Positions 6,492 to 44,904 of a stretch of 64,000 bases of DNA are shown here, one piece after another (position 1 is the stretch's first letter; every line of letters starts with the position of its first letter). The position numbers and the translations under genes were made by a program. The notes under the pieces are model-generated. The model did not search any database, was not told the origin of the DNA, and saw only the letters and a list, made by a program, of their open reading frames with translations. This DNA is from Streptomyces daqingensis. Lineage in GTDB: Bacteria > Actinomycetota > Actinomycetes > Streptomycetales > Streptomycetaceae. The stretch is from NCBI RefSeq assembly GCF_014645895.1, contig NZ_BMMP01000006.1, forward strand, positions 186,001 to 250,000, given 5' to 3'.

Positions 6492-6501
6492 CCCGATCGA
6501 G

Positions 6502-6574
6502 TACCCCCGACCGGATTCGAACCGGCGCTACCGCCTTGAGAGGGCGGCGTGCTAGGCCGCTACACAACGGGGGC
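6502..6574 (-). tRNA. tRNA-Glu (CTC)
   Basis: A 73-base cloverleaf: acceptor GCCCCCG/CGGGGGT, anticodon loop CTCTCAA giving anticodon CTC, and T-loop GGTTCGAATCC. No CCA is encoded. It is identical in sequence to the copy at 6606-6678. Confidence 0.95.
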
Positions 6575-6605
6575 CTCTCTGCGATCCGCAACGATCACGG
6601 ACCAG

Positions 6606-6678
6606 TACCCCCGACCGGATTCGAACCGGCGCTACCGCCTTGAGAGGGCGGCGTGCTAGGCCGCTACACAACGGGGGC
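6606..6678 (-). tRNA. tRNA-Glu (CTC), second copy
   Basis: A second identical 73-base tRNA-Glu gene 31 bases away, a tandem duplication. Both probably come from one precursor transcript together with tRNA-Gln, ending at the hairpin at 6464-6491. Confidence 0.95.
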
Positions 6679-6728: not shown

Positions 6729-6800
6729 CTGGGCTACCAGGACTCGAACCTAGACTAACTGAACCAGAATCAGTCGTGCTGCCAATTACACCATAGCCCA
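6729..6800 (-). tRNA. tRNA-Gln (CTG)
   Basis: A 72-base cloverleaf: acceptor TGGGCTA/TAGCCCA, anticodon loop TTCTGGT giving CTG, and T-arm GGTTCGAGTCC. It is the first gene of the Gln-Glu-Glu cluster, read leftward. Confidence 0.94.
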
Positions 6801-9702: not shown

Positions 9703-11268
9703 CTACTGCTGGGCGTCCAGCTTCGCCAGCGCCGCGTCGACGCGGGCCAACGTCCGCTCCCGGCCGAGGACTTCGAGGGACTCGAAGAGGGGAAGGCCGA
9801 CCGTGCGCCCCGTGACGGCGACGCGGACCGGGGCCTGGGCCTTGCCCAGCTTCAGGCCGTGCTCCTCACCCGCGGCGAGGACGGCCTCCTTCAGCGCCTC
9901 GGCCTTCCAGTCGGCCTCGGCGAGCTTCGTACGGGCTGTGCGCAGCAGGTTCTCCGCGCCCGGCTTCATCGCCTTCGTCCAGGACGCGTCGTCCGCGACG
10001 GGCTCGTCCAGGAAGAGGAAGTCGACGTTGGCGGTGATGTCGGAGAGGACCGTGAGGCGCGTCTGGGCCAGCGGAGCCAGCTCTTCGAACGCCGCCCGGT
10101 CGAAGGCCTCCGGCGCCCACGGGGCGTAGGGCGCGCGCAGCCACGGCTCGCACGCCGTGATGAACTCGTCGAGCGGGAGTTCGCGGAGGTGCGTGGCGTT
10201 GATCGCCTCGCACTTCTTCAGGTCGAAGCGGGCCGGGTTGGCGTTGACGTCGGTGATCTCGAAGGCGGCGATCATCTCGTCGAGGGTGAAGATGTCGCGG
10301 TCCTCGGCGATCGACCAGCCCAGCAGCGAAAGGTAGTTGAGCAGGCCCTGCGGCAGGAAGCCGCGCTCCCGGTAGAGGTTGAGCGAGGCCTGCGGGTCGC
10401 GCTTGGAGAGCTTCTTGTTGCCCTCGCCCATGACGTACGGGAGGTGCCCGAACGCGGGGGTCGTGCCGTTGCCGACGCCGATCTGCGCCAGGGCGCGGTA
10501 GAGGGCGATCTGGCGCGGGGTCGACGAGAGCAGGTCCTCGCCGCGCAGTACGTGCGTGATCTCCATCAGCGCGTCGTCGACGGGGTTGACGAGCGTGTAG
10601 AGCGGGGCTCCGTTGGCGCGGACGATGCCGTAGTCGGTGACGTTCTCCGGGGCGAACGTCAGCTCGCCGCGGACGAGGTCGGTGAAGGTGATCGTCTCGT
10701 CCGGCATGCGGAAGCGCACGATGTGGCTGCGCCCCTCCGCCTCGTACGCGGCGATCTGCTCGGGGGTGAGGTCGCGGCACTTGCCGTCGTAGCCGGAGGG
10801 CCGCCCGGCCTTGCGGGCGGCGTCGCGGCGCTCCTCCAGCTCGTCCGCCGTGCAGTAGCAGGGGTAGGCGTAGCCGTGTTCCTGGAGCTTCGCCGCGATG
10901 TCGGCGTAGATCTCCATGCGCTGCGACTGGCGGTACGGGCCGTGCGGGCCTCCCCCTGGGCCTGCGGCCCGGGCGGTACCCCCAGGGCCGCCGGACGCCT
11001 CGTCGAACGGCGCGGGGCCCTCGTCCCAGTCGATGCCGAGCCAGCGCATGGCGTCCAGCAGCTGCTCGTAGGACTCCTCGGAGTCCCTCGCCGCGTCGGT
11101 GTCCTCGATGCGGAAGACGAGAGTGCCGCCGTGGTGGCGTGCGAACGCCCAGTTGAACAGGGCGGTGCGGATGAGCCCGACGTGGGGGTTGCCCGTCGGG
11201 GAGGGACAGAACCGTACGCGGACGTCCTTCGGGTCGACCGTGGACGGGGTCGCGGTCGCGTCAGTCAC
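9703..11268 (-). CDS. gltX: Glutamyl-tRNA synthetase
   Basis: A 521-residue class I synthetase that charges tRNA-Glu (and, in actinobacteria lacking GlnRS, tRNA-Gln for later amidation). The HIGH-type motif is [12 protein letters not shown] (residues 21-32) and the KMSKS-type motif is KLSKRDPQ. It is longer than the usual 490-500 residues because of a Gly/Pro-rich insert, [19 protein letters not shown], near residue 100 just before GPYRQSQR; this insert is encoded by a palindromic repeat (see 10952-10979). The start overlaps the upstream gene's stop by eight bases. Confidence 0.96.
10952..10979. repeat. 28-base palindromic repeat inside gltX
   Basis: The core TGGGCCTGCGGCCCGGG can form a hairpin. 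A second copy at 44511-44538, in the opposite orientation, matches 26 of 28 bases. Here it lies inside the gltX frame and encodes most of a Gly/Ala/Pro-rich insert. Confidence 0.8.
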
Positions 11269-12959: not shown

Positions 12960-13544
12960 TCAGCGCAGGCGGGCCATCAGTGCGTGCTCGACCAGAGTGA
13001 TCAGCGCGCTCTTCGCGTCCGAGCGGTGGCGCGCGTCGGTGGTGATGATCGGCGCGTCCGGGCCGATCTGCAGCGCTTCGCGGACCTCTTCCGGGGTATA
13101 CGGCTGGTGGCCGTCGAAGCCGTTCAGCGCGATCACGAAGGGGAGGCCGGAGTTCTCGAAGTAGTCGACCGCGGGGAAGCAGTCCGCGAGTCGGCGGGTG
13201 TCGACCAGCACGACGGCACCGATCGCACCGCGCACCAGGTCGTCCCACATGAACCAGAAACGGTCCTGCCCCGGCGTACCGAACAGGTACAGGATCAGGT
13301 CCTGGTCGAGAGTGATGCGGCCGAAGTCCATGGCCACCGTGGTGGTGGTCTTGTCACCGGTGTGGGTCAGGTCGTCGATCCCGGCGGAGGCCGAGGTCAT
13401 CACGGCTTCCGTGCGCAGCGGATTGATCTCCGACACGGCACCCACGAAGGTCGTCTTGCCCACACCGAAACCACCGGCGACCACGATTTTCGCGGAAGTG
13501 GTGGAACGGGCAGCAGCGCCGCCGCTAGAGCTTCCGAAGTCCAC
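12960..13544 (-). CDS. cvnD: Conservon GTPase CvnD (first conservon)
   Basis: A 194-residue Ras-like small GTPase: P-loop GGFGVGKTTFVGA (residues about 26-38), switch region with DFGRI, G3 LFGTPGQDRFWFMWDD, and NGFDGHQ in place of the usual NKxD. CvnD proteins are thought to act in a membrane-associated complex with CvnA, CvnB and CvnC, in a manner likened to eukaryotic G-protein systems (family knowledge). The start overlaps the cvnC end by 20 bases. About 395 bases of the gene are almost identical to the second conservon's cvnD. Confidence 0.95.
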   Translation of the reverse strand: MDFGSSSGGAAARSTTSAKIVVAGGFGVGKTTFVGAVSEINPLRTEAVMTSASAGIDDLTHTGDKTTTTVAMDFGRITLDQDLILYLFGTPGQDRFWFMWDDLVRGAIGAVVLVDTRRLADCFPAVDYFENSGLPFVIALNGFDGHQPYTPEEVREALQIGPDAPIITTDARHRSDAKSALITLVEHALMARLR

Positions 13545-14181
13545 TGAGCACCCTTTCGAGCAGTGTCACGTCTGGCTGGCCGTCGGCGTCGGTGTCCTCG
13601 CCGCCGGGCTGGTGGATGGCGACGAGTCCGGCCTCCGCCAGGTCGGCGACGAGGATACGGGCGACGCCAAGGGGAATGGAGAGAAGTGCCGAGATCTCAG
13701 CTACCGATTTGATCTCATAGCACAGCCGGCAGATCCGCTGATGCTCCGGCAACTGGCCCTGCAGTCGGGCCGGTTCAGCAGAAGTATGCACCAGAGCCTC
13801 GATGGCGAGCTGGTAGCGGGGCCTGGTACGGCCACCGGTCATGGCGTACGGGCGCACCAGCGGCTGCTGCTCGGTGCGGCCGTTGTGGCTCCCCGCGTCG
13901 CTGCGCGGGGCGGGCTGCACAGGCTGGATGCGGGGTGGCGGGCCCTGGTCGTACTGCCCCCCGCCGTACGACTGCTCGCGACGGCCGCCGTACAGCCCCT
14001 CGTCGAACTGCGGCGGCTCCTGCCGCTGCGGGGGCGGCTGCTGCCGGCGCGGAGGCTGAGGCTCGTCGCGTGAGTGGGCGCCCACGTGCCTGCTGGGCGT
14101 CGAGGGGAAGTTGAACCGCTTCGGGCGCGCGTTCTCATGACCACTGCCGTACGACGACGGGCCGCCTGGGGGCATTGTCAC
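13525..14181 (-). CDS. cvnC: Conservon protein CvnC (DUF742), long N-terminus
   Basis: A 218-residue protein. The last 120 residues are the DUF742 domain (RPYAMTGGRTRPRYQLAIEA, LPEHQRICRLCYEIKSVAE, IPLGVARILVADLAEAG), a winged-helix-like fold. The first 95 residues are a Pro/Gln-rich disordered extension absent from the paralogue at 18746-19156. GTG at 14181 and ATG at 14175 both follow GGAGGAGGAAAC, so the start is uncertain by two codons. It is part of the cvnABCD operon. Confidence 0.93.
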   Translation of the reverse strand: MTMPPGGPSSYGSGHENARPKRFNFPSTPSRHVGAHSRDEPQPPRRQQPPPQRQEPPQFDEGLYGGRREQSYGGGQYDQGPPPRIQPVQPAPRSDAGSHNGRTEQQPLVRPYAMTGGRTRPRYQLAIEALVHTSAEPARLQGQLPEHQRICRLCYEIKSVAEISALLSIPLGVARILVADLAEAGLVAIHQPGGEDTDADGQPDVTLLERVLSGLRKL

Positions 14182-14312
14182 GTTTCCTCCTCCGACTCAC
14201 GGACGTGCTTGCCACATCATTCCGCCTGCTCCAGCTCGTTGAGTGAGCGCCGCATCCCCAGCACCTTATGGCGCGGAGGCGCAACGCGCACTGCCTGACT
14301 ACTGGTTGAGAA

Positions 14313-14735
14313 TCAGTTGAGCAGGCTGCCTTGCAGTTCAGCACGGAGGTCCGGGGTGAGAACCGTACCCGCGCGATCGACGAGAAGTGCCATCTCGTAG
14401 CCGACCAGACCGATGTCGGCGTCGGGATGGGCGAGGACCGCCAGGGCGGAGCCGTCGGAGATGGACATGATGAAAAGGAATCCCCTCTCCATCTCCACCA
14501 CTGTCTGGTTCACCATGCCGCCCTCGAAGATGCGGGAGGCTCCGGCGGTGAGCGAGGTCAGCCCGGAGGCGACCGCGGCCAACTGGTCGGCGCGGTCGCG
14601 CGGGAAGCCCTCGGACATCGCGAGCAGTAGCCCGTCCGCGGAGACCACAACCGTGTGGGAAACACCGGGGGTGCTGTCCACGAAGTTGGTGATCAACCAG
14701 TTCAGGTTCTGCGCCGCCTGGCTCATCGGGCTCAC
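14313..14735 (-). CDS. cvnB: Conservon roadblock/LC7 protein CvnB
   Basis: A roadblock/LC7-domain protein of 137-140 residues (NLNWLITNFVDSTPGVSHTV, LLLAMSEGFPRDRADQLAAV, GYEMALLVDRAG). Roadblock proteins bind small GTPases such as CvnD. I chose the GTG at 14735, one base after the cvnA stop, because AGGAG lies seven bases before it; the ATG at 14726 (MSQAAQNLNW) is the alternative. The arrangement implies tight translational coupling to cvnA. Confidence 0.94.
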   Translation of the reverse strand: MSPMSQAAQNLNWLITNFVDSTPGVSHTVVVSADGLLLAMSEGFPRDRADQLAAVASGLTSLTAGASRIFEGGMVNQTVVEMERGFLFIMSISDGSALAVLAHPDADIGLVGYEMALLVDRAGTVLTPDLRAELQGSLLN

Positions 14736-14736
14736 A

Positions 14737-17700
14737 CTAACGCTCCTGATCGTAGGTGCTGCCGGGGCCGAAGCCCTGTCGGTCATTGTGGGGGCCGTCA
14801 CCCGCACCGCGCCCTCTGCGGACGCCCCGGTGCAGGTTACTCAGCCTGCCACGGACGTCCTCCGGCGCACGGGAGACCGCGGGGCCTCCCTGCATGGGTG
14901 CTTCGGCTGTGCCCTCGACCAGGTTGGCCCTGGGCACCCGCCTGGGAAGGCCGGATGAAGTGGTACCACCGGACTGCGGTTCGCGCAGCCGGCCCGCACG
15001 GTTCCAGCGCTCGTCGTTGGGCGACTGCCAACTCCCGGAGGATTCCGTTTGACGCTGGGGTTCCTGGTGTTGCGCCTTGGGTCCACCCGCCTGCCCCTGC
15101 CGCGCCGTCTCTCGGCGCGGCAGACCTGCGCCGGTAGTGGAGCGGTAGTCGCTCGGGCCGGGACCCGGCCGGTCGAAGCCTACGCCGTTGCTGCCGTTCC
15201 CGTGAACGCCGGGTGCGGATTCCGCTTGTGGCTCCCCGGGAACGAGACGGTCATCTGCGGACGGCCCCGTTCCGGGCCCGGGCTCCGGCGGCTCGTGCTG
15301 CCCGTACGCCGGCTGCCACCCGGGATCGGCCTGCCGGCCGCCGAACTCGGGCCGGCCGTACGGCTGTTGCTCGTACCCGGAGGGCGCGGGCCGCAGCGGG
15401 CGGGGGTCACCGGCCGGACGCTCCTCCAAGCCGTCTCCCGGACCCGCGCGGTGCCGGCCCGGACGCTCCCGGAGGCCGTCGTGGCCGCCGGCTCCCGGCA
15501 GGGACGGGCCCAGGGGGTCGAGCGCGGAGACGTCGTCGGGGATCTCGTAGGAGCCGTCGTCGAAGCCGAGTTCGGCCGCGGAGCGGGCCCCCGTCAGTTC
15601 TCCCTGCTGCTGCCGGGGAGGCTGGGGACGCTCCGGCATGATCCGGGAGACGCTGAAGTCCTCGAAGGCGTCCTCCTCGCCTCCGCCGCCACGGGTGATG
15701 GCCTCGGGAAGCATCACCAGGCACGTCGTGCCCGCCTGTTCACCGGAGGGCCGCAGCTGGACGCGGATGCCGTGCCGGTCGGCGAGGCGGCCGACCACGA
15801 ACAGGCCCATGCGCTTGGCCAGACTGGCGTCCACCGTGGGCGGGTTGGCCAGCTTGTGGTTGATGTCGGCGAAGTCCTCGGCGGTCAGGCCGATGCCCTT
15901 GTCGTGGATCTCGACGACGACGCGGCCGTCGGGCAGCCGGGTCGCCGTGACGTGCACCTTCGTCTGCGGCGACGAGAACGTGGTGGCGTTCTCCAGGAGT
16001 TCGGCCAGCAGGTGCACGAGGTCGTTGACGACCTGGCCGTGGATCTCGCTCTCCGGGATGCCCGAGAGCTCGATGCGCTCGTAGTGCTCCACCTCGGACG
16101 AGGCGGCCCGCAGGATGTCGACGAGCGGGACGGGCTCGTTCCAGCGGCGGCCGGGCTCCTCGCCGGCGAGGACGAGGAGGTTCTCTCCGTTGCGCCGCAT
16201 ACGGGTGGCCAGATGGTCGAGGCGGAAGAGGCTCTCTAGCTGATCCGGGTCGGCCTCGTTGTTCTCCAGGTCGGAGATCAGGCCCAGTTGGCGCTCGATG
16301 AGGCCCTGGTTGCGGCTGGAGAGGTTCGTGAAGATCGCATTGACGTTTCCTCGCAGCAGCGCCTGCTCGGCCGCGAGACGCACGGCCTCGCGGTGCACCT
16401 GGTCGAAGGCCCGCGCGACCTCGCCGATCTCGTCCCGGCTGTCGATCGGGATGGGCGCGACCCTCGTGTCGACCCGTCCCGGATCCGTACGGGAGAGCTG
16501 GTCGACGAGCGAGGGAAGCCGCTCCTCGGCGATGCCGAACGCGGCGGTGCGCAGGTTGCGCATGCCGCGGCTCATCGAGCGGGCCATCATGCCCGCGACG
16601 ACGAAGGCGAGAAGCAGCGAGACCAGCACGATGAGCGCGTTGACGAAGGCGTCCTGCCGCGCGTCGGAGGAGATCTGCTCGGTCTCCTCCACCGCCTGGT
16701 CGGCGAGCTGCTTCTCCACGGCGCGGTAGGCGTCGAACTTGAGGGTGCTGGAGGCGAACCAGCTCTTCGCGGTGATGCCCTTGGCCTTCAGCGCCCGGGC
16801 GCCGGAACCGGAGACGATGGCCGGTATCGCCTTCTCCGCGGGCGGCGGCGGTACGTACTGCCCGCCCGCTGCCTGCACCTTCGCCTTCTGGACCGCCGCG
16901 AGCTTCTTGCCCTTGGCCTCGGCGCGGGCCTTCTCGCGCTTGAGCAGCGCGATGTCCTCGGGGCGCCCGCCGCCGACGTACTCCTCCATGGCGATGCGCT
17001 CGAGGTAGGCGTAGGAGGTCAGAGCGGTGAACTGCCGCTTCCGGTCGGTCTTCGACGGCCCGGGGCGCACCAGGATGTGCATGGCGATGGAGCGCTCCAG
17101 GGACTGCGCCGCCTTGCCCAGGGAGATCGAGTAGACGGTGCGCCCGTAGGAGGTGATGTTGCCCGTGCCGAAGCCGAGTTCGTTGGCGAACTCCATCAGC
17201 GGGTGCTGGATCGTGACGTAGCCCTCTTCGGTGCGCACGCCGCTCAGACGATCGGTGTACGCCGCCCTGCGGAGCTCGCCCAGCTTGGGCTCCACCTTGC
17301 GGAAGACAGCCAGCCGGCGCTTCAGCCCGGGCTTGTCCGGCATCGCCGTCACGGCGCGGTCGAAGCCCTCCTTGGCGCGGTCGGTGACGGCGCGTACGCG
17401 CTCGACTGACGGATCGTTCCGGCGGCCCGCGAGCAGGGGCGCCACGGTGCGGTCGCGCTCGTCGATGAGGGCGTTGCCGTAGGTGGCGGCCGCGCGCACG
17501 AGCTCGGCGGTGCGCTGCGCCTCGTCCGCCTCGTTCCAGGTCTCGACGGAGTCCTGGACCCGGAAACCGCCGAAGACCAGGCCGACGATCACGGGAATGA
17601 GGAGGATCGCGTTGAGGCGGGTTCTCACGCGCCAGTTCCGGACCGCCAGCCGGCTGCCGTTGCCGCCGCCGGCAGGCAGTCCGGTGCTCGCCGCACCCAG

Positions 17701-18147: not shown

Positions 18148-18765
18148 TCACTTCAGGCGGGCGAGCAGCGCGTGCTCGACCAGAGTGATCAGCGCACTCT
18201 TCGCCTCGGCGCGGTGCCGGGCGTCGGTGACGATGATCGGCGCGTCCGGGCCGATCTGCAGCGCCTCACGGACCTCCTCCGGCCCGTAGGGCTGGTGGCC
18301 GTCGAAGCCGTTCAGCGCGATCACGAAGGGGAGGCCGGAGTTCTCGAAGTAGTCGACCGCGGGGAAGCAGTCCGCGAGTCGGCGGGTGTCGACCAGCACG
18401 ACGGCACCGATCGCACCGCGCACCAAGTCGTCCCACATGAACCAGAAACGGTCCTGCCCCGGCGTACCGAACAGGTACAGGATCAGGTCGTCGTCGAGAG
18501 TGATGCGGCCGAAGTCCATGGCCACCGTGGTGGTGGTCTTGCCGCCGGTGTGGGTCAGGTCGTCGATCCCGGCGGAGGCCGAGGTCATCACGGCTTCCGT
18601 ACGGAGCGGATTGATCTCCGACACGGCACCCACGAAGGTCGTCTTGCCCACACCGAAACCACCGGCGACCACGATTTTCGCGGAGGTCGTCGAACGGGCC
18701 GCCGCAGGGGCTCCGTAACCCATCGTCTGCCCCGTCGTCTGCGGGCTAGAGCTTGCGAAGTCCAC
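18148..18765 (-). CDS. cvnD: Conservon GTPase CvnD (second conservon)
   Basis: A 205-residue Ras-like GTPase with P-loop GGFGVGKTTFVGA, LFGTPGQDRFWFMWDD and NGFDGHQPYG. The N-terminal 30 residues differ from the first conservon's protein, but the core is nearly identical in both protein and DNA. It overlaps cvnC by 20 bases and is the last gene of its operon, followed by the hairpin at 18070-18107. Confidence 0.95.
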   Translation of the reverse strand: MDFASSSPQTTGQTMGYGAPAAARSTTSAKIVVAGGFGVGKTTFVGAVSEINPLRTEAVMTSASAGIDDLTHTGGKTTTTVAMDFGRITLDDDLILYLFGTPGQDRFWFMWDDLVRGAIGAVVLVDTRRLADCFPAVDYFENSGLPFVIALNGFDGHQPYGPEEVREALQIGPDAPIIVTDARHRAEAKSALITLVEHALLARLK

Positions 18766-19156
18766 TGAGCACCCTTTCGAGCAAGGTCACATCCGGAGCG
18801 CCACCAGGTTCGGAACCGCCGCCGGGCTGATGGATGGCCACCATGCCGGCCTCGGCGAGGTCGGCGACCAGGATCCGGGCCACGCCGAGCGGTATCGCGA
18901 GCAGGGCGGAGACCTCCGCCACCGACTTGACCTCACGGCACAGATGGCAGATCCGCTGGTGCTCGGGGAGCAGACCCTGCAGCTGCATCGGGTCGGCGCT
19001 CGTGCTCACCAACGCCTCGATCGCAAGCTGGTAGCGCGGCCTTGTACGGCCGCCCGTCATGGCATAAGGGCGCACCAGCGGCTGGTCGCCCTCACCTCCG
19101 TACGGTGCGTGCTGGTATGGGGCACCGTACGGGCCGGGCGTGGCTGGCGGGGTCAT
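18746..19156 (-). CDS. cvnC: Conservon protein CvnC (DUF742), short form
   Basis: A 136-residue DUF742 protein (RPYAMTGGRTRPRYQLAIEA, LPEHQRICHLCREVKSVAE, IPLGVARILVADLAEAGMVA). It has only a 25-residue Pro/Tyr-rich leader, in contrast to the 95-residue extension of the first conservon's copy. The start codon at 19156 follows GGAGC. Confidence 0.94.
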   Translation of the reverse strand: MTPPATPGPYGAPYQHAPYGGEGDQPLVRPYAMTGGRTRPRYQLAIEALVSTSADPMQLQGLLPEHQRICHLCREVKSVAEVSALLAIPLGVARILVADLAEAGMVAIHQPGGGSEPGGAPDVTLLERVLSGLRKL

Positions 19157-19227
19157 GGCTCCTCCGAGCGAGGCATGAGGTCGGGTCGGCTAACGGTCTG
19201 AGGTGGCACATGATGCTGCGGTTCGGA

Positions 19228-19650
19228 TCAGTTGAGGATGCTCCCCTGAAGTTCAGCGCGCACGTCAGGGGTGAGGACTGTTCCCGCACGGTCGACCAGC
19301 AAGGCCATCTCGTAACCGACGAGACCGATGTCGGCCTCGGGGTGTGCGAGGACGGCGAGAGAGGAGCCGTCCGAGATGGACATGATGAAGAGGAACCCCC
19401 GTTCCATCTCCACCACGGTCTGGTTGACGGGACCCCCCTCGAAGATGCGTGAGGCGCCCGCGGTCAGTGAGGTCAGCCCGGAGGCGACCGCCGCCAACTG
19501 GTCGGCGCGGTCGCGCGGGAAGCCCTCGGACATGGCCAGAAGGAGGCCGTCCGCGGAGACCACCACCGTGTGCGACACACCTGGGGTGTTGTCCACGAAG
19601 TTGGTGATCAACCAGTTCAGATTCTGCGCCGCCTGGCTCATCGGACTCAA
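19228..19650 (-). CDS. cvnB: Conservon roadblock/LC7 protein CvnB
   Basis: A 140-residue roadblock/LC7 protein, nearly identical in sequence to the first conservon's CvnB but with many synonymous DNA differences. A TTG start at 19650 directly abuts the cvnA stop and has AGGAG six bases upstream; the ATG at 19641 is the alternative. The same architecture is seen in the other conservon, supporting coupled translation. Confidence 0.93.
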   Translation of the reverse strand: MSPMSQAAQNLNWLITNFVDNTPGVSHTVVVSADGLLLAMSEGFPRDRADQLAAVASGLTSLTAGASRIFEGGPVNQTVVEMERGFLFIMSISDGSSLAVLAHPEADIGLVGYEMALLVDRAGTVLTPDVRAELQGSILN

Positions 19651-22600
19651 CTAACGCTCCTGCTGGTAAGTGGGGCCAATGCCGCGGCCGTTCGTCGTAC
19701 CGGCCTGCCGGCCCTGCTGGATGCCGCGGCGTAGGTTGGTCAGCCGGCCACGGACGTCGTCAGGGGCGCGGGAGACCTGGGGACCGGATTGGGCGGAGGA
19801 CTGCTGCTGCGCGGTACCCGCGACAAGGTTGGCGCGGGGCACGCGACGCGGCAGACCCGAAGTGGTGACTCCCCCGGCGGCGGGCTGGCGGACCTGTTCG
19901 GCCTTGCGCCAGCGCTCGTCGTTGGGAGAGGCACCCCAGTACGCACCCGGGTCGGCGCTGCTGTGCGCTTCCCCGGTCGCGTGGGCGGAGTTCGCAGACG
20001 CGCTCTCGGCGGTGCCCCGAGCGGTCTGACGCTGCGGCATCGGCGGCACGGCGGAGGCCGGCTGGCCGGGCCGTGGTGCGGGTGCCTGGTGCGAGGGTTC
20101 CGTCGCCCCCTCGTTCCTGTCCCCGCGGGGAGCGGGGGGAGGCGCCGAGGAAGCGGCACGGAACCAGTTGGACTCGATGGCCTCGAAGATCGGCGTGGGT
20201 GCGTCGGCGGCTGCCGGCGGCACCGCGGGTATGCCGAAGTCCGGGTCGTAGGCGGGCGCCTGCTCGTTCTGCGACCGGTCGGGCTGTGCGTGCTCGCCGG
20301 TGTCCTGCGGGCTCTGGCCCTGCTGCTCCCTGCCGGGAGCGGCACCCTGGCCGCCGCTGGAAGCGCCGGTGAACCCGGGACGGGCGAACTCTCCGGTGTC
20401 CGAGACGTCGGAGTCGTCGTGCCCGCGCGGGCCGTCCTCGCCGGAACCCGAAGGGGACGCCCAGCTGGGACGCTGGCTCCACTCCTCGGGACGGGCGAAC
20501 TGCCCCGTCTCGGCGGGCGACGGCGGACGCTGGAACTCACCCGTGCCCGAAGGCTGCGGGGGACGCGCGAACGGGCTCGCCTCGGAAGGCTGCGGCGGGC
20601 GGGCGAACTGGCCCGTGTCCGAGGGCGGCAGGGGGCGCTCGCCGGTGTCCTGGTTGGGCTGCGGCGGGGCGGCGTACTCGCCCGAGGCCTGGTTGCCCTC
20701 CCAGCTCTGCCAGTCGTCCGGCCTGCTGAACTCGCCCGTGTCGCCCGGGCCGCGCTGGCCACCGGGGCCTCCCGGACCACCGGGACCCGACGGGCTCGCG
20801 TTGCCGCCGGTCAGCTGACCGGCCGGGCCGGGACGCTGAGGCAGCGGCGGAACCTGGCGGTTGAGCGGCGGAGCGGCGGGCGGGCCGCTGCGCGGCTTGC
20901 CGTTGCCCGCACCGCTGTCGCTGAAGAAGTCGTTCGCCGGAGCGCCGTTGTCGCCCGGTCCGGTTCCGGCGCCCACGGGGGCTCCCCCGCCGGGCAGTTC
21001 GGGGCGGGCCTCGCCGCCGCCGACGGGACGCGCCTGCCCCATCTTGGCACCGGGGCCGCCGCTCGGGCCGCGCTGCAGCGCGGCGGCGAGGCCGGTGCCC
21101 TTGGGCGCCGCGGCGGCCGCCGACTTGGCCTTGCCGGGCTGCGGCGGCTGGGCGCCGCCCTGCGCGACGTCGACGGGAAGCATGACCAGCGCGGTCGTTC
21201 CGCCGGAGTCCGAGGGGCGCAGCTGGATGCGGATGCCGTGACGCAGCGAGAGGCGGCCGACCACGAACAGGCCCATGCGGCGGGAGACCGAGACGTCCAC
21301 CGTCGGGGGGCTGGCCAGCCGCTCGTTGATCGCGGAGAGGTCCTCCGGCGAGAGGCCGATGCCGGTGTCGTGGATCTCCACCAGCACCCGGCCGTCGGGC
21401 AGGGCGTGGCCGGTGACCTTGACCTTCGTCTGCGGCGAGGAGAACGACGTCGCGTTCTCCAGCAGCTCGGCCAGGAGGTGCACGAGGTCGTTGACGACGC
21501 GGCCGGCGACCTCCGTGGCGGGCACGGAGTTCAGCTCGATGCGCTCGTACTGCTCCACCTCGGACGCGGCCGCGCGGAGGACGTCCACGAGCGGGACGGG
21601 CCTGGTCCAGCGGCGGCCCGGCTCCTCACCCGCGAGGACGAGGAGGTTCTCGCCGTTGCGGCGCATACGCGTCGCGAGGTGGTCCAGCTTGAACAGCGAC
21701 GAGAGCTGGTCCGGGTCGGCCTCGCGGGACTCCAGTTCGGAGATCAGCGAGAGCTGGCGCTGGATGAGGCCCTGGCTGCGGCGCGAGAGGTTGGTGAACA
21801 TCGCGTTGACGTTGCCCCGGAGCAGTGCCTGCTCGCCCGCGAGCCGGACGGCTTCGCGGTGGACGTCGTCGAACGCGGAGGCCACACGGCCGATCTCGTC
21901 CCGGCTGTGCACACCCACGGACTCGACAGAGGTGTCGACGTCCTGGGGCTCGGCCTCGGACATCTGCTTGACCAGCTCGGGAAGGCGCTTGCGGGCGACG
22001 TCCTGAGCGGTGTCCTGGAGCCTGCGCAGCGAGCGGACCATGGAGCGGGCCACCACGAACGCGCCGACGAGCGATATGCCGAGGACGAGCAGGATGATCG
22101 CGCCGTTGATGATGGCCTCGCGCTGCGCGGCGGAGCGCAGTTCGCGAGCCTGCTGCTCCAGCTGCGAGAGGAGCGCCGACTCGATCTTGGCCATCTCGTC
22201 GATCTTGGAGCGGTCCTGGTCGTACCAGTCGGGGTACGAGCGGGTCTCGCTCTTGATGCCGTCGGGGTTGTTCAGCACGCGGTCGCGGTACTTGTCCGCC
22301 AGCGTGATGTTGACGACGCCGCCGTCGAGGGGCTTCGTCAGCTCGACGGCGCGCTCGTCGCCGTAGATCTTGGTGAAGCTGTCCAGCGAGGCGTCCTCGC
22401 TGTCGGCGGCGGTCTTGCCGAACAGCCGGTCGCTCTCGGAGAGCTCGGGACCGCCCTTGCGGGCGAGGCCCGCGGAGATGATCGCCCGCTGGATGGAGGC
22501 GTGCTCCTTGGCGGTGGAGAACGCCGCCAGCGCGCGCGTGCTCTGGATCATCTCGGAGTTGTTGGAGGCCTGCGCCATGTCCTGCGACAGGGACAGCAGC

Positions 22601-42921: not shown

Positions 42922-44492
42922 CTGCGGGCCGACGTCGCACCGATCTCGCCCTTGATCTCCGCGAGCACCGGGGCGGGGATGTTGTCGTCGACGGTCAGCG
43001 CGACCAGCGCGTCGCCGCCCGCCGTGGCGCGGCCGACCTGCATGCCGGCGATGTTGATGCCGGCCTCGCCGAGGATGCGTCCGACGGTGCCGACGACGCC
43101 CGGGCGGTCGGCGTAGCGGAAGAAGGCCATGTGCTCCGCGAGCGCAAGGTCCACGTCGTGCTCGCCGACGGCGACGATCTTCTGCAGATGCTTGGGCCCG
43201 GCCAGGGTGCCGGAGACCGAGACCTCCTCGCCGCTGCTGAGCGTGCCCCGCACGGTGACCACGTTGCGGTGCTCGGGCGACTCGCTGGAGGTGGTGAGCC
43301 GCACCTCGACGCCGCGCTCCTGCGCGAAGAGCGGCGCGTTGACGTAACTGACCGTGTCGTCGACGACGTCCTCGAAGACGCCCTTCAGCGCGGAGAGTTC
43401 GAGGACCTTCACGTCGTGCTGCGTGATCTCGCCGTACACCTCGACGTCCAGCCGCACCGCGACCTCTCCCGCGAGGGCGGTGAAGATCCGGCCGAGGCCC
43501 TCGGCCAGCGGCAGCGCCGGGCGCACGTCCTCGGCGATGACGCCGCCCTGGACGTTGACGGCGTCCGGCACGAGCTCGCCGGCCAGAGCGAGCCGCACGG
43601 ACCTGGCGACGGCGATGCCCGCCTTCTCCTGGGCCTCGCCGGTGGAGGCGCCCAGATGCGGCGTGCACACGACCTGGTCGAACTCGAAGAGCGGGGAGTC
43701 GGTGCACGGCTCGCTGGCGTAGACGTCCAGGCCCGCGCCCGCCACGCGCCCTTCCTTCAGCGCGGAGGCCAGCGCCGCCTCGTCGACGATGCCGCCGCGG
43801 GCCGCGTTGATGACGCGCACGCCCGGCTTGACCTTGTGCAGGGCGTCGTCGCCGATCAGGCCGAGGGTCTCGGGCGTCTTGGGGAGGTGGACGGTGATGA
43901 AGTCCGAGGTCTCCAGCAGCTCGTCCAGGGAGAGCAGCTTCACGCCCATCTGCGCGGCGCGGGCAGGCTGCACGAACGGGTCGTACGCGACGACCTTCAT
44001 CCCGAACGCGGACATCCGCTGCGCGACCAGCACGCCGATGCGGCCGAGGCCCACGACGCCGAGCGTCTTCTCGCTCAGCTCGACGCCCGTGTACTTGCTC
44101 CGCTTCCACTCCCCGTTCTTCAGGGCCGAGTTGGCCTGCGGGATGTTCCGCGCGCTGGCGATCAGGAGGCCGCAGGCGAGCTCGGCGGCGGTGACGATGT
44201 TGGACGTGGGCGCGTTGACGACCATGACGCCGGCCTTCGTGGCGGCGGGTACGTCGACGTTGTCGAGCCCGACACCCGCCCGGGCCACCACCTTGAGCTT
44301 GCGGGCCGCGGCGACGGCCTCCGCGTCCACCTTCGTGGCGGAGCGCACGAGGATCGCGTCGACGTCGGCGATGGCGGTGAGGAGTTCGTCCCGGTCGGCT
44401 CCGTTGCAGCTGCGGATCTCGAAGTCCGGTCCGAGAGCGTCGACGGTGGCGGGCGAGAGCTCTTCGGCGATCAGTACTACGGGCTTGCTCAC
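42903..44492 (-). CDS. serA: D-3-phosphoglycerate dehydrogenase
   Basis: A 529-residue, long-form PGDH, first step of serine synthesis. The Rossmann domain has VVGLGRIGVLVAQRM, the catalytic Arg is in INAARGGIVDEAAL, Glu in DVYASEPCTDS and His in TPHLGASTGEA. After residue 320 come the allosteric substrate-binding domain and a C-terminal ACT domain (FFRYADRPGVVGTVGRILGE). Serine feedback is expected from the ACT domain. GTG start at 44492 with GGAG five bases upstream. The stop codon lies in a tandem duplication. Confidence 0.97.
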   Translation of the reverse strand: MSKPVVLIAEELSPATVDALGPDFEIRSCNGADRDELLTAIADVDAILVRSATKVDAEAVAAARKLKVVARAGVGLDNVDVPAATKAGVMVVNAPTSNIVTAAELACGLLIASARNIPQANSALKNGEWKRSKYTGVELSEKTLGVVGLGRIGVLVAQRMSAFGMKVVAYDPFVQPARAAQMGVKLLSLDELLETSDFITVHLPKTPETLGLIGDDALHKVKPGVRVINAARGGIVDEAALASALKEGRVAGAGLDVYASEPCTDSPLFEFDQVVCTPHLGASTGEAQEKAGIAVARSVRLALAGELVPDAVNVQGGVIAEDVRPALPLAEGLGRIFTALAGEVAVRLDVEVYGEITQHDVKVLELSALKGVFEDVVDDTVSYVNAPLFAQERGVEVRLTTSSESPEHRNVVTVRGTLSSGEEVSVSGTLAGPKHLQKIVAVGEHDVDLALAEHMAFFRYADRPGVVGTVGRILGEAGINIAGMQVGRATAGGDALVALTVDDNIPAPVLAEIKGEIGATSARSVDLTD

Positions 44493-44904
44493 GTGGTCTC
44501 CAGTCTGGGCGTACCTCCCGGGCCGAAGGCCCAGGGGGCGGGTCGTCCTCACCGCGGGCAGGCGGCGGGGAACCACGGCCGCGTCCCGGCGGCCGTAGAC
44601 GGTGGAGGGGGTCATCCCCGCGGGCGCAGGGCAGACGCACGACGCTGTGAGCCTGTGGCGCGCTTGGCTTGTGCCTGCAGTGTAGCCAGCCACGCCAGGT
44701 GGGGGCTTCCCCTCCCGGTAATCGATCATCGTCCTGACCGGCCGCCGGCGCGACGGGGTCTCAGCAGCCGGGACGCGTGCCGCACCTCCCGGCGCTCCCC
44801 TGCTCCGGCGCCCCGGAGGCGGCGGCGCTGGTCGTGGGGCGCGGGCGCGGAGAGGTCCGCTCCCAGGGGCGCCGGGAGATCGTTCCTGCGCCCCCTGTGC
44901 GCCT
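44493..44904. other. Intergenic region between serA and the GH3 gene
   Basis: These 412 bases hold no supported gene. They contain the serA 5' region with a palindromic repeat at 44511-44538, a GC-rich 44540-44640 stretch, a lower-GC patch near 44670-44700 (probable serA promoter area) and the 3' flank of the GH3 gene. Confidence 0.5.
44511..44538. repeat. 28-base palindromic repeat upstream of serA
   Basis: The reverse complement of this element matches 26 of 28 bases of the element inside gltX at 10952-10979. Here it lies 19 bases upstream of the serA start codon, in the untranslated leader, where the hairpin could influence translation. Confidence 0.8.

Follow-up and report, generated by a model that had tools for sequence, protein, structure and literature searches.

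Short palindromic elements dispersed in Streptomyces, with in-frame copies in gltX and other conserved genes

A short GC-rich hairpin lies in frame within the glutamyl-tRNA synthetase (GluRS) gene gltX and, in inverted orientation, in the leader of serA. We consider it probable that these two copies belong to a dispersed Streptomyces hairpin family that enters new sites by replacing roughly 5 nt at the target and is tolerated in genes as a loop. The stretch of DNA analyzed here, referred to as the window, covers 64,000 nucleotides and is part of a 6.5-Mb Streptomyces-like genome (G000). The features concerned are the following.

9703..11268, minus strand: gltX, glutamyl-tRNA synthetase; intact ORF, 521 aa, GTG start
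10950..10985, minus strand: palindromic element, gltX copy, CTGGGGGTACCGCCCGGGCCGCAGGCCCAGGGGGAG; CM R1, 63 bits
44505..44540, plus strand: palindromic element, serA-leader copy, CTGGGCGTACCTCCCGGGCCGAAGGCCCAGGGGGCG; CM R1, 58.8 bits
44490..44504, minus strand: serA start codon GTG (44490-44492), with a ribosome-binding GGAG separating it from the element; from sequence and leader alignment
G000:C1:257079-257114: third strong copy, with a called ORF starting 29 bp downstream
G000:C7:61033-61068: weaker copy within metG
G000:C2:467701-467737: weaker copy within an acyl-CoA dehydrogenase gene

The window copies in gltX and in the serA leader

A preliminary description of this DNA had reported a 28-base palindrome at 10952-10979 and an inverted copy at 44511-44538. 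We recovered both, with 26 of 28 positions identical. The element is thus real, but it measures 35 to 36 nt (10950-10985), and what it forms is an imperfect hairpin, not a perfect palindrome. The match itself extends over 34 nt, with positions 10952-10985 aligning to 44505-44538 on the opposite strand at 3 mismatches, and among the matches listed from an all-against-all comparison of the window this was the sole inverted 34-mer pair with no more than 3 mismatches. A 34-nt match with 3 mismatches did not occur in any of 100 dinucleotide shuffles, and five simulated third-order Markov windows contained no repeat pairs of whatever kind.

A search of the genome returned one match, making gltX the sole GluRS gene found in G000. 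The closest GluRS with a known structure, 3pny (M. tuberculosis-type; E = 9.7e-161, phmmer), has a short loop and a chain without the insert. The element encodes about 12 residues, corresponding to GluRS residues 95-106. In an AlphaFold2 model of the protein (mean pLDDT, 87.8), residues 89-105, spanning nearly the whole insert, were modelled as disordered with pLDDT values below 50. The insert is thus predicted to be a disordered loop, in line with the tolerated surface loop that had been proposed. We think it unlikely that the element serves any function in GluRS.

The insert was present in only 2 of the 111 GluRS genes examined, those of G000 and of its sister genome G257 (L070), whose copies are identical over 36 bp, while 106 of the 111 genes share a common 25-residue spacing in this region; the insert is therefore not universal among actinobacterial GluRS sequences. 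The closest GluRS from a named species, that of S. nanshensis (L231; about 89 to 91% identical), is among those having a longer loop without the element, together with G025 (both FDxxSG) and S. gossypii (FDAAAG). Since these three carry a similar extension, the Phe-Asp-x-x-Ser-Gly stretch beside the repeat does not belong to the element; in some relatives the loop had thus lengthened already. We also observed that the short Gly/Ser-rich loop at this site in S. nanshensis resembles the inner part of the element, as do Gly/Ser-rich loops at the insertion sites in deoC and the alcohol dehydrogenase gene of G000 (L335 and L330). To judge from their sequences, these loops may have been left behind when older copies were deleted. 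In the 80 named loci no family copies lay near gltX, and these loci were usable for the gltX comparison only; 30-nt matches in a conserved gltX segment (L241 and L042) were discarded as chance.

Two further observations concern the surroundings of gltX. Three tRNA genes lie nearby (6502-6574, 6606-6678 and 6729-6800), two of them in near-identical 104-bp tandem units (window positions 6494-6652). In addition, positions 12966-16173 and 18154-21639 are long, nearly identical and collinear, offset by about 5.2 kb, and represent an operon duplication with a small GTPase-like gene (conservon-like) among its members.

In the serA leader, G257 has a diverged copy in the equivalent place (L379/L115). 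A copy of a different subfamily replaces TGCG at nearly the same place in G018 (L382), and the 12 other relatives compared lack the element. The G018 copy is an independent one, and the leader a possible hot spot. The leader copies (serA and L002) may affect expression. Most Streptomyces examined have a conserved GC-rich inverted repeat (cggccgtcgggacggccgtccgc) before serA (L380-L392), which is altered in G000 and G257.

The family and its functional interpretation

Alignment of the copies revealed a common frame, TGGGGG(C/T)ACCnCCC-(variable stem-loop)-GGGGGAG, in which the ends are fixed and the middle varies. The elements are GC-rich and 27 to 38 nt long. The claim that the two window copies stood for a dispersed family was borne out: G000 has one more strong copy, its third, besides several that are diverged, and in G257 over 20 matches scored above 31 bits. 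Because a strict subfamily pattern matched just 3 of 296 genomes, the general frame was used instead; it occurred in 74 of 121 Streptomyces genomes, reaching its highest copy number (101) in the single contig of G113. The same search with a reversed pattern gave one hit in total. One could imagine that a GC-rich genome, where Gly/Pro loops are common, produced similar GC-rich loops in gltX and ahead of serA by chance. We give this reading practically no weight, as it is refuted by the shuffles, by the near-zero reversed control over the 121 genomes and by exact copies of a 32-nt core at three loci in G257. The earlier interpretation thus largely holds and is supported. What goes beyond it is the genus-wide extent of the family, its many subfamilies, its in-frame presence in many core genes and the insertion by exchange of about 5 nt.

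Although the middle of the element varies, its two outer stem pairs were paired in 80.5% of cases, against a mean of 60% and a maximum of 70% in shuffles that dealt the arms at random, a comparison that is indicative only, since the members are related. About 73 copies were intergenic and 51 lay in ORFs as called by a crude gene caller. This retained complementarity would be compatible with a DNA or RNA site, such as a terminator, a binding site or a translation attenuator, that selection has multiplied, and so would two G000 copies that lie directly ahead of genes, in their leaders (serA and L002), and the independent serA-leader copy of G018. However, many copies lie in unrelated coding genes in either orientation. 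Intrinsic terminators consist of a GC hairpin followed by a U run, whereas no run of T was seen after either arm, be it in the sequence flanking the two window copies or in the family copies listed. An Rfam search returned tRNAs only and left the family unmatched, and the RNA fold z-scores of the single window copies were ordinary, no better than those of shuffles. An RNA role is therefore unsupported by these tests, and we regard a selected functional site as an improbable explanation for the family.

In-frame insertions and exchange of target nucleotides

A copy lies in frame in 14 conserved genes whose orthologues lack it, namely gltX and the genes of 13 further filled/empty sets. The latter include metG and the acyl-CoA dehydrogenase gene in G000; ileS, thrC, deoC, an alcohol dehydrogenase gene and a WYL regulator gene in G257; and six genes in other Streptomyces, among them those for an HpcH-type aldolase and an AhpD-like protein and four others. 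The orthologues were element-free and the frame was preserved in all 13 sets. Both orientations occur, with antisense copies in thrC and the acyl-CoA dehydrogenase gene. Many of the copies sit at Asp-Gly or Glu-Gly turns (for example, LADGTP becomes LGGGTARAGGSGGGTE), and the translated inserts are rich in Gly, Pro, Ala and Ser. In the genome G132, the element splits and frameshifts the Y1 transposase gene of an IS200-like element, which is present there in two diverged copies.

L180, about 1744: Y1 gene disrupted by a copy (G132)
L184, about 1738: Y1 gene disrupted by a copy (G132)

The frame is therefore not kept where it does not matter. Consistently, element lengths of 2 mod 3 (32 or 35 nt) were found in 13 of 20 confident gene copies, while the intergenic figure was 22 of 73 (P = 0.008, with crude gene/intergenic calls and with two orthologous gltX copies among the 20), as expected if frame-breaking insertions in genes are lost. 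Within genes, only frame-preserving insertions would survive, and the intact state of single-copy essential genes suggests that the peptide insert is tolerated as a disordered loop.

The preliminary description had called the element mobile-looking, and this impression is sustained, as a reading of sequence comparisons, by the presence and absence of copies across genomes. In genes, elements of 32 to 37 nt caused a net gain of 27, 30 or 33 nt, always below the element length. Exactly 5 nt of target were missing in 11 of 16 filled/empty comparisons and 3, 4 or 6 nt were replaced in the other five, with the qualification that some empty sites come from diverged relatives and that later indels can blur the count of replaced nucleotides. 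The right junction was CG^G in 11 of the 16 (CGACG^G, GGACG^G, GCACG^G, CAGCG^G, TGGCG^G and shorter forms). Target nucleotides were replaced and no target duplication was seen in any of the 16 comparisons. For gltX, the empty site was inferred from G025, whose loop is similar, not identical, and the count against S. nanshensis is 11 nt; a target duplication considered at this site (GCC or GGCCC) was dropped, since the other empty sites show replacement. Between strains of one species, we saw no insertion difference.

The same exchange was found outside genes. Two copies of another repeat in G113 differ by a 31-nt element that replaces GCACG, and in nested copies of that genome CAGCG is replaced. 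The loss of 5 nt is therefore not merely an effect of the reading frame. In G113, the element also lands in a second, larger family of palindromic repeats, GTTGTGGGCA...TGGGCACAAC (L278-L306; for example, L298, 1229-1310), with some copies nested two or three deep.

Candidate routes of spread and relation to known repeats

Copies would thus enter new sites by taking the place of some 5 target nucleotides, most often a stretch that ends in CG and has G next to it. While the exchange itself is read from the filled/empty comparisons, we can only infer what performs it. The most likely mover would be a trans-acting activity that acts on hairpins, perhaps on single-stranded DNA, and that is distinct from Y1/RAYT enzymes. 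No transposase or mobile carrier was identified for the family, the transposase search having covered Y1 only.

In several respects the elements resemble REPs, being short, imperfect, high-copy hairpins found in both orientations, with a conserved, strand-asymmetric head and a complementary variable stem. REPs are moved by Y1 RAYTs (PMC2817692) and carry GTAG or CGTC tags (PMC3733652). The Streptomyces elements, in contrast, have the head TGGGGGYACC and the tail GGGGGAG, without a GTAG or CGTC head, and are frequently intragenic and in frame. Moreover, matches to PF01797 are absent from the copy-rich genomes G113 (101 copies), G114 and G144, as well as from G257 and G161; the single Y1 gene of G000 is not flanked by the element; and the two Y1 genes of G132 are themselves broken by copies. 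Mobilization of a REP by a REP-associated Y1 tyrosine transposase is thus largely refuted, and we consider it highly improbable.

The elements could also spread without any transposase, if template switching, microhomology-mediated repair or gene conversion copied the hairpin to other positions and a few nucleotides were lost there. Replacement of the target instead of its duplication, the variable size of the exchange (3 to 6 nt), nesting within other palindromes and the failure to find a carrier element all agree with such a route. However, the common 5-nt size and the CG^G junction suggest an activity that recognizes sequence, and full-length intact copies lie at non-homologous sites, so that we regard this route as possible but rather unlikely. 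Returning to a trans-acting mover, we tentatively propose, as an idea with somewhat less than an even chance of being right, that the family represents an as yet undescribed, minimal class of mobile DNA: a hairpin of 27 to 38 nt that a non-Y1 enzyme inserts by a precise 5-nt exchange at CG^G, repeatedly adding loops of 9 to 11 codons to essential enzymes. If true, the frame-fitting lengths after exchange would make the element a natural in-frame peptide inserter.

Most coding palindromes described so far come from Rickettsiales, with later examples from some mitochondria. The nearest precedent is the Rickettsia palindromic element (RPE), which is found in frame within conserved genes and also in intergenic regions (PMC2229807, PMC10969869). 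RPEs and the palindromic elements of Wolbachia share with the Streptomyces family the occurrence of palindromes both in frame and between genes, as well as tolerance by the host protein. RPEs are, however, 105 to 146 bp or more in length and reside in intracellular Rickettsiales, whereas the Streptomyces elements, at 27 to 38 nt, have about a quarter of that size, are GC-rich, occur in a free-living host and exchange about 5 nt of target. Size sets the family apart from RPEs, and its distribution and composition make homology unlikely. MITEs such as ERIC, RUP, Correia and YPAL are likewise small, dispersed and presumably moved in trans. They usually duplicate their target, and YPAL prefers targets with dyad symmetry (PMC2229807), which some Streptomyces copies recall by sitting in palindromes. 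Unlike the Streptomyces family, which replaces its target, MITEs are mostly 100 to 200 bp long and are accompanied by target duplication. Neither sequence fragments nor topics led us to a description of the family in the open-access literature, to which the search was confined, and its novelty is therefore provisional.

Coding palindromes in free-living, industrially used Streptomyces provide many independent natural insertion experiments, and the affected core enzymes, including the products of gltX, metG, ileS and thrC, are well studied. The family also explains odd Gly/Pro-rich loops among annotated Streptomyces proteins, and its signature of about 5 exchanged nucleotides, no duplication and no Y1 enzyme points to an undescribed route of spread for tiny hairpins.

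Among 148 genomes of the class, the pattern was found only in Streptomyces (g1) and in one other genus (g8), a sign that the family passed from one actinobacterial genus to another or is common to both. The g8 member (L275) is 27 nt long and lies close to where a gene for a luciferase-like oxidoreductase starts; relative to what we take to be the empty form, it appears to replace ATG.
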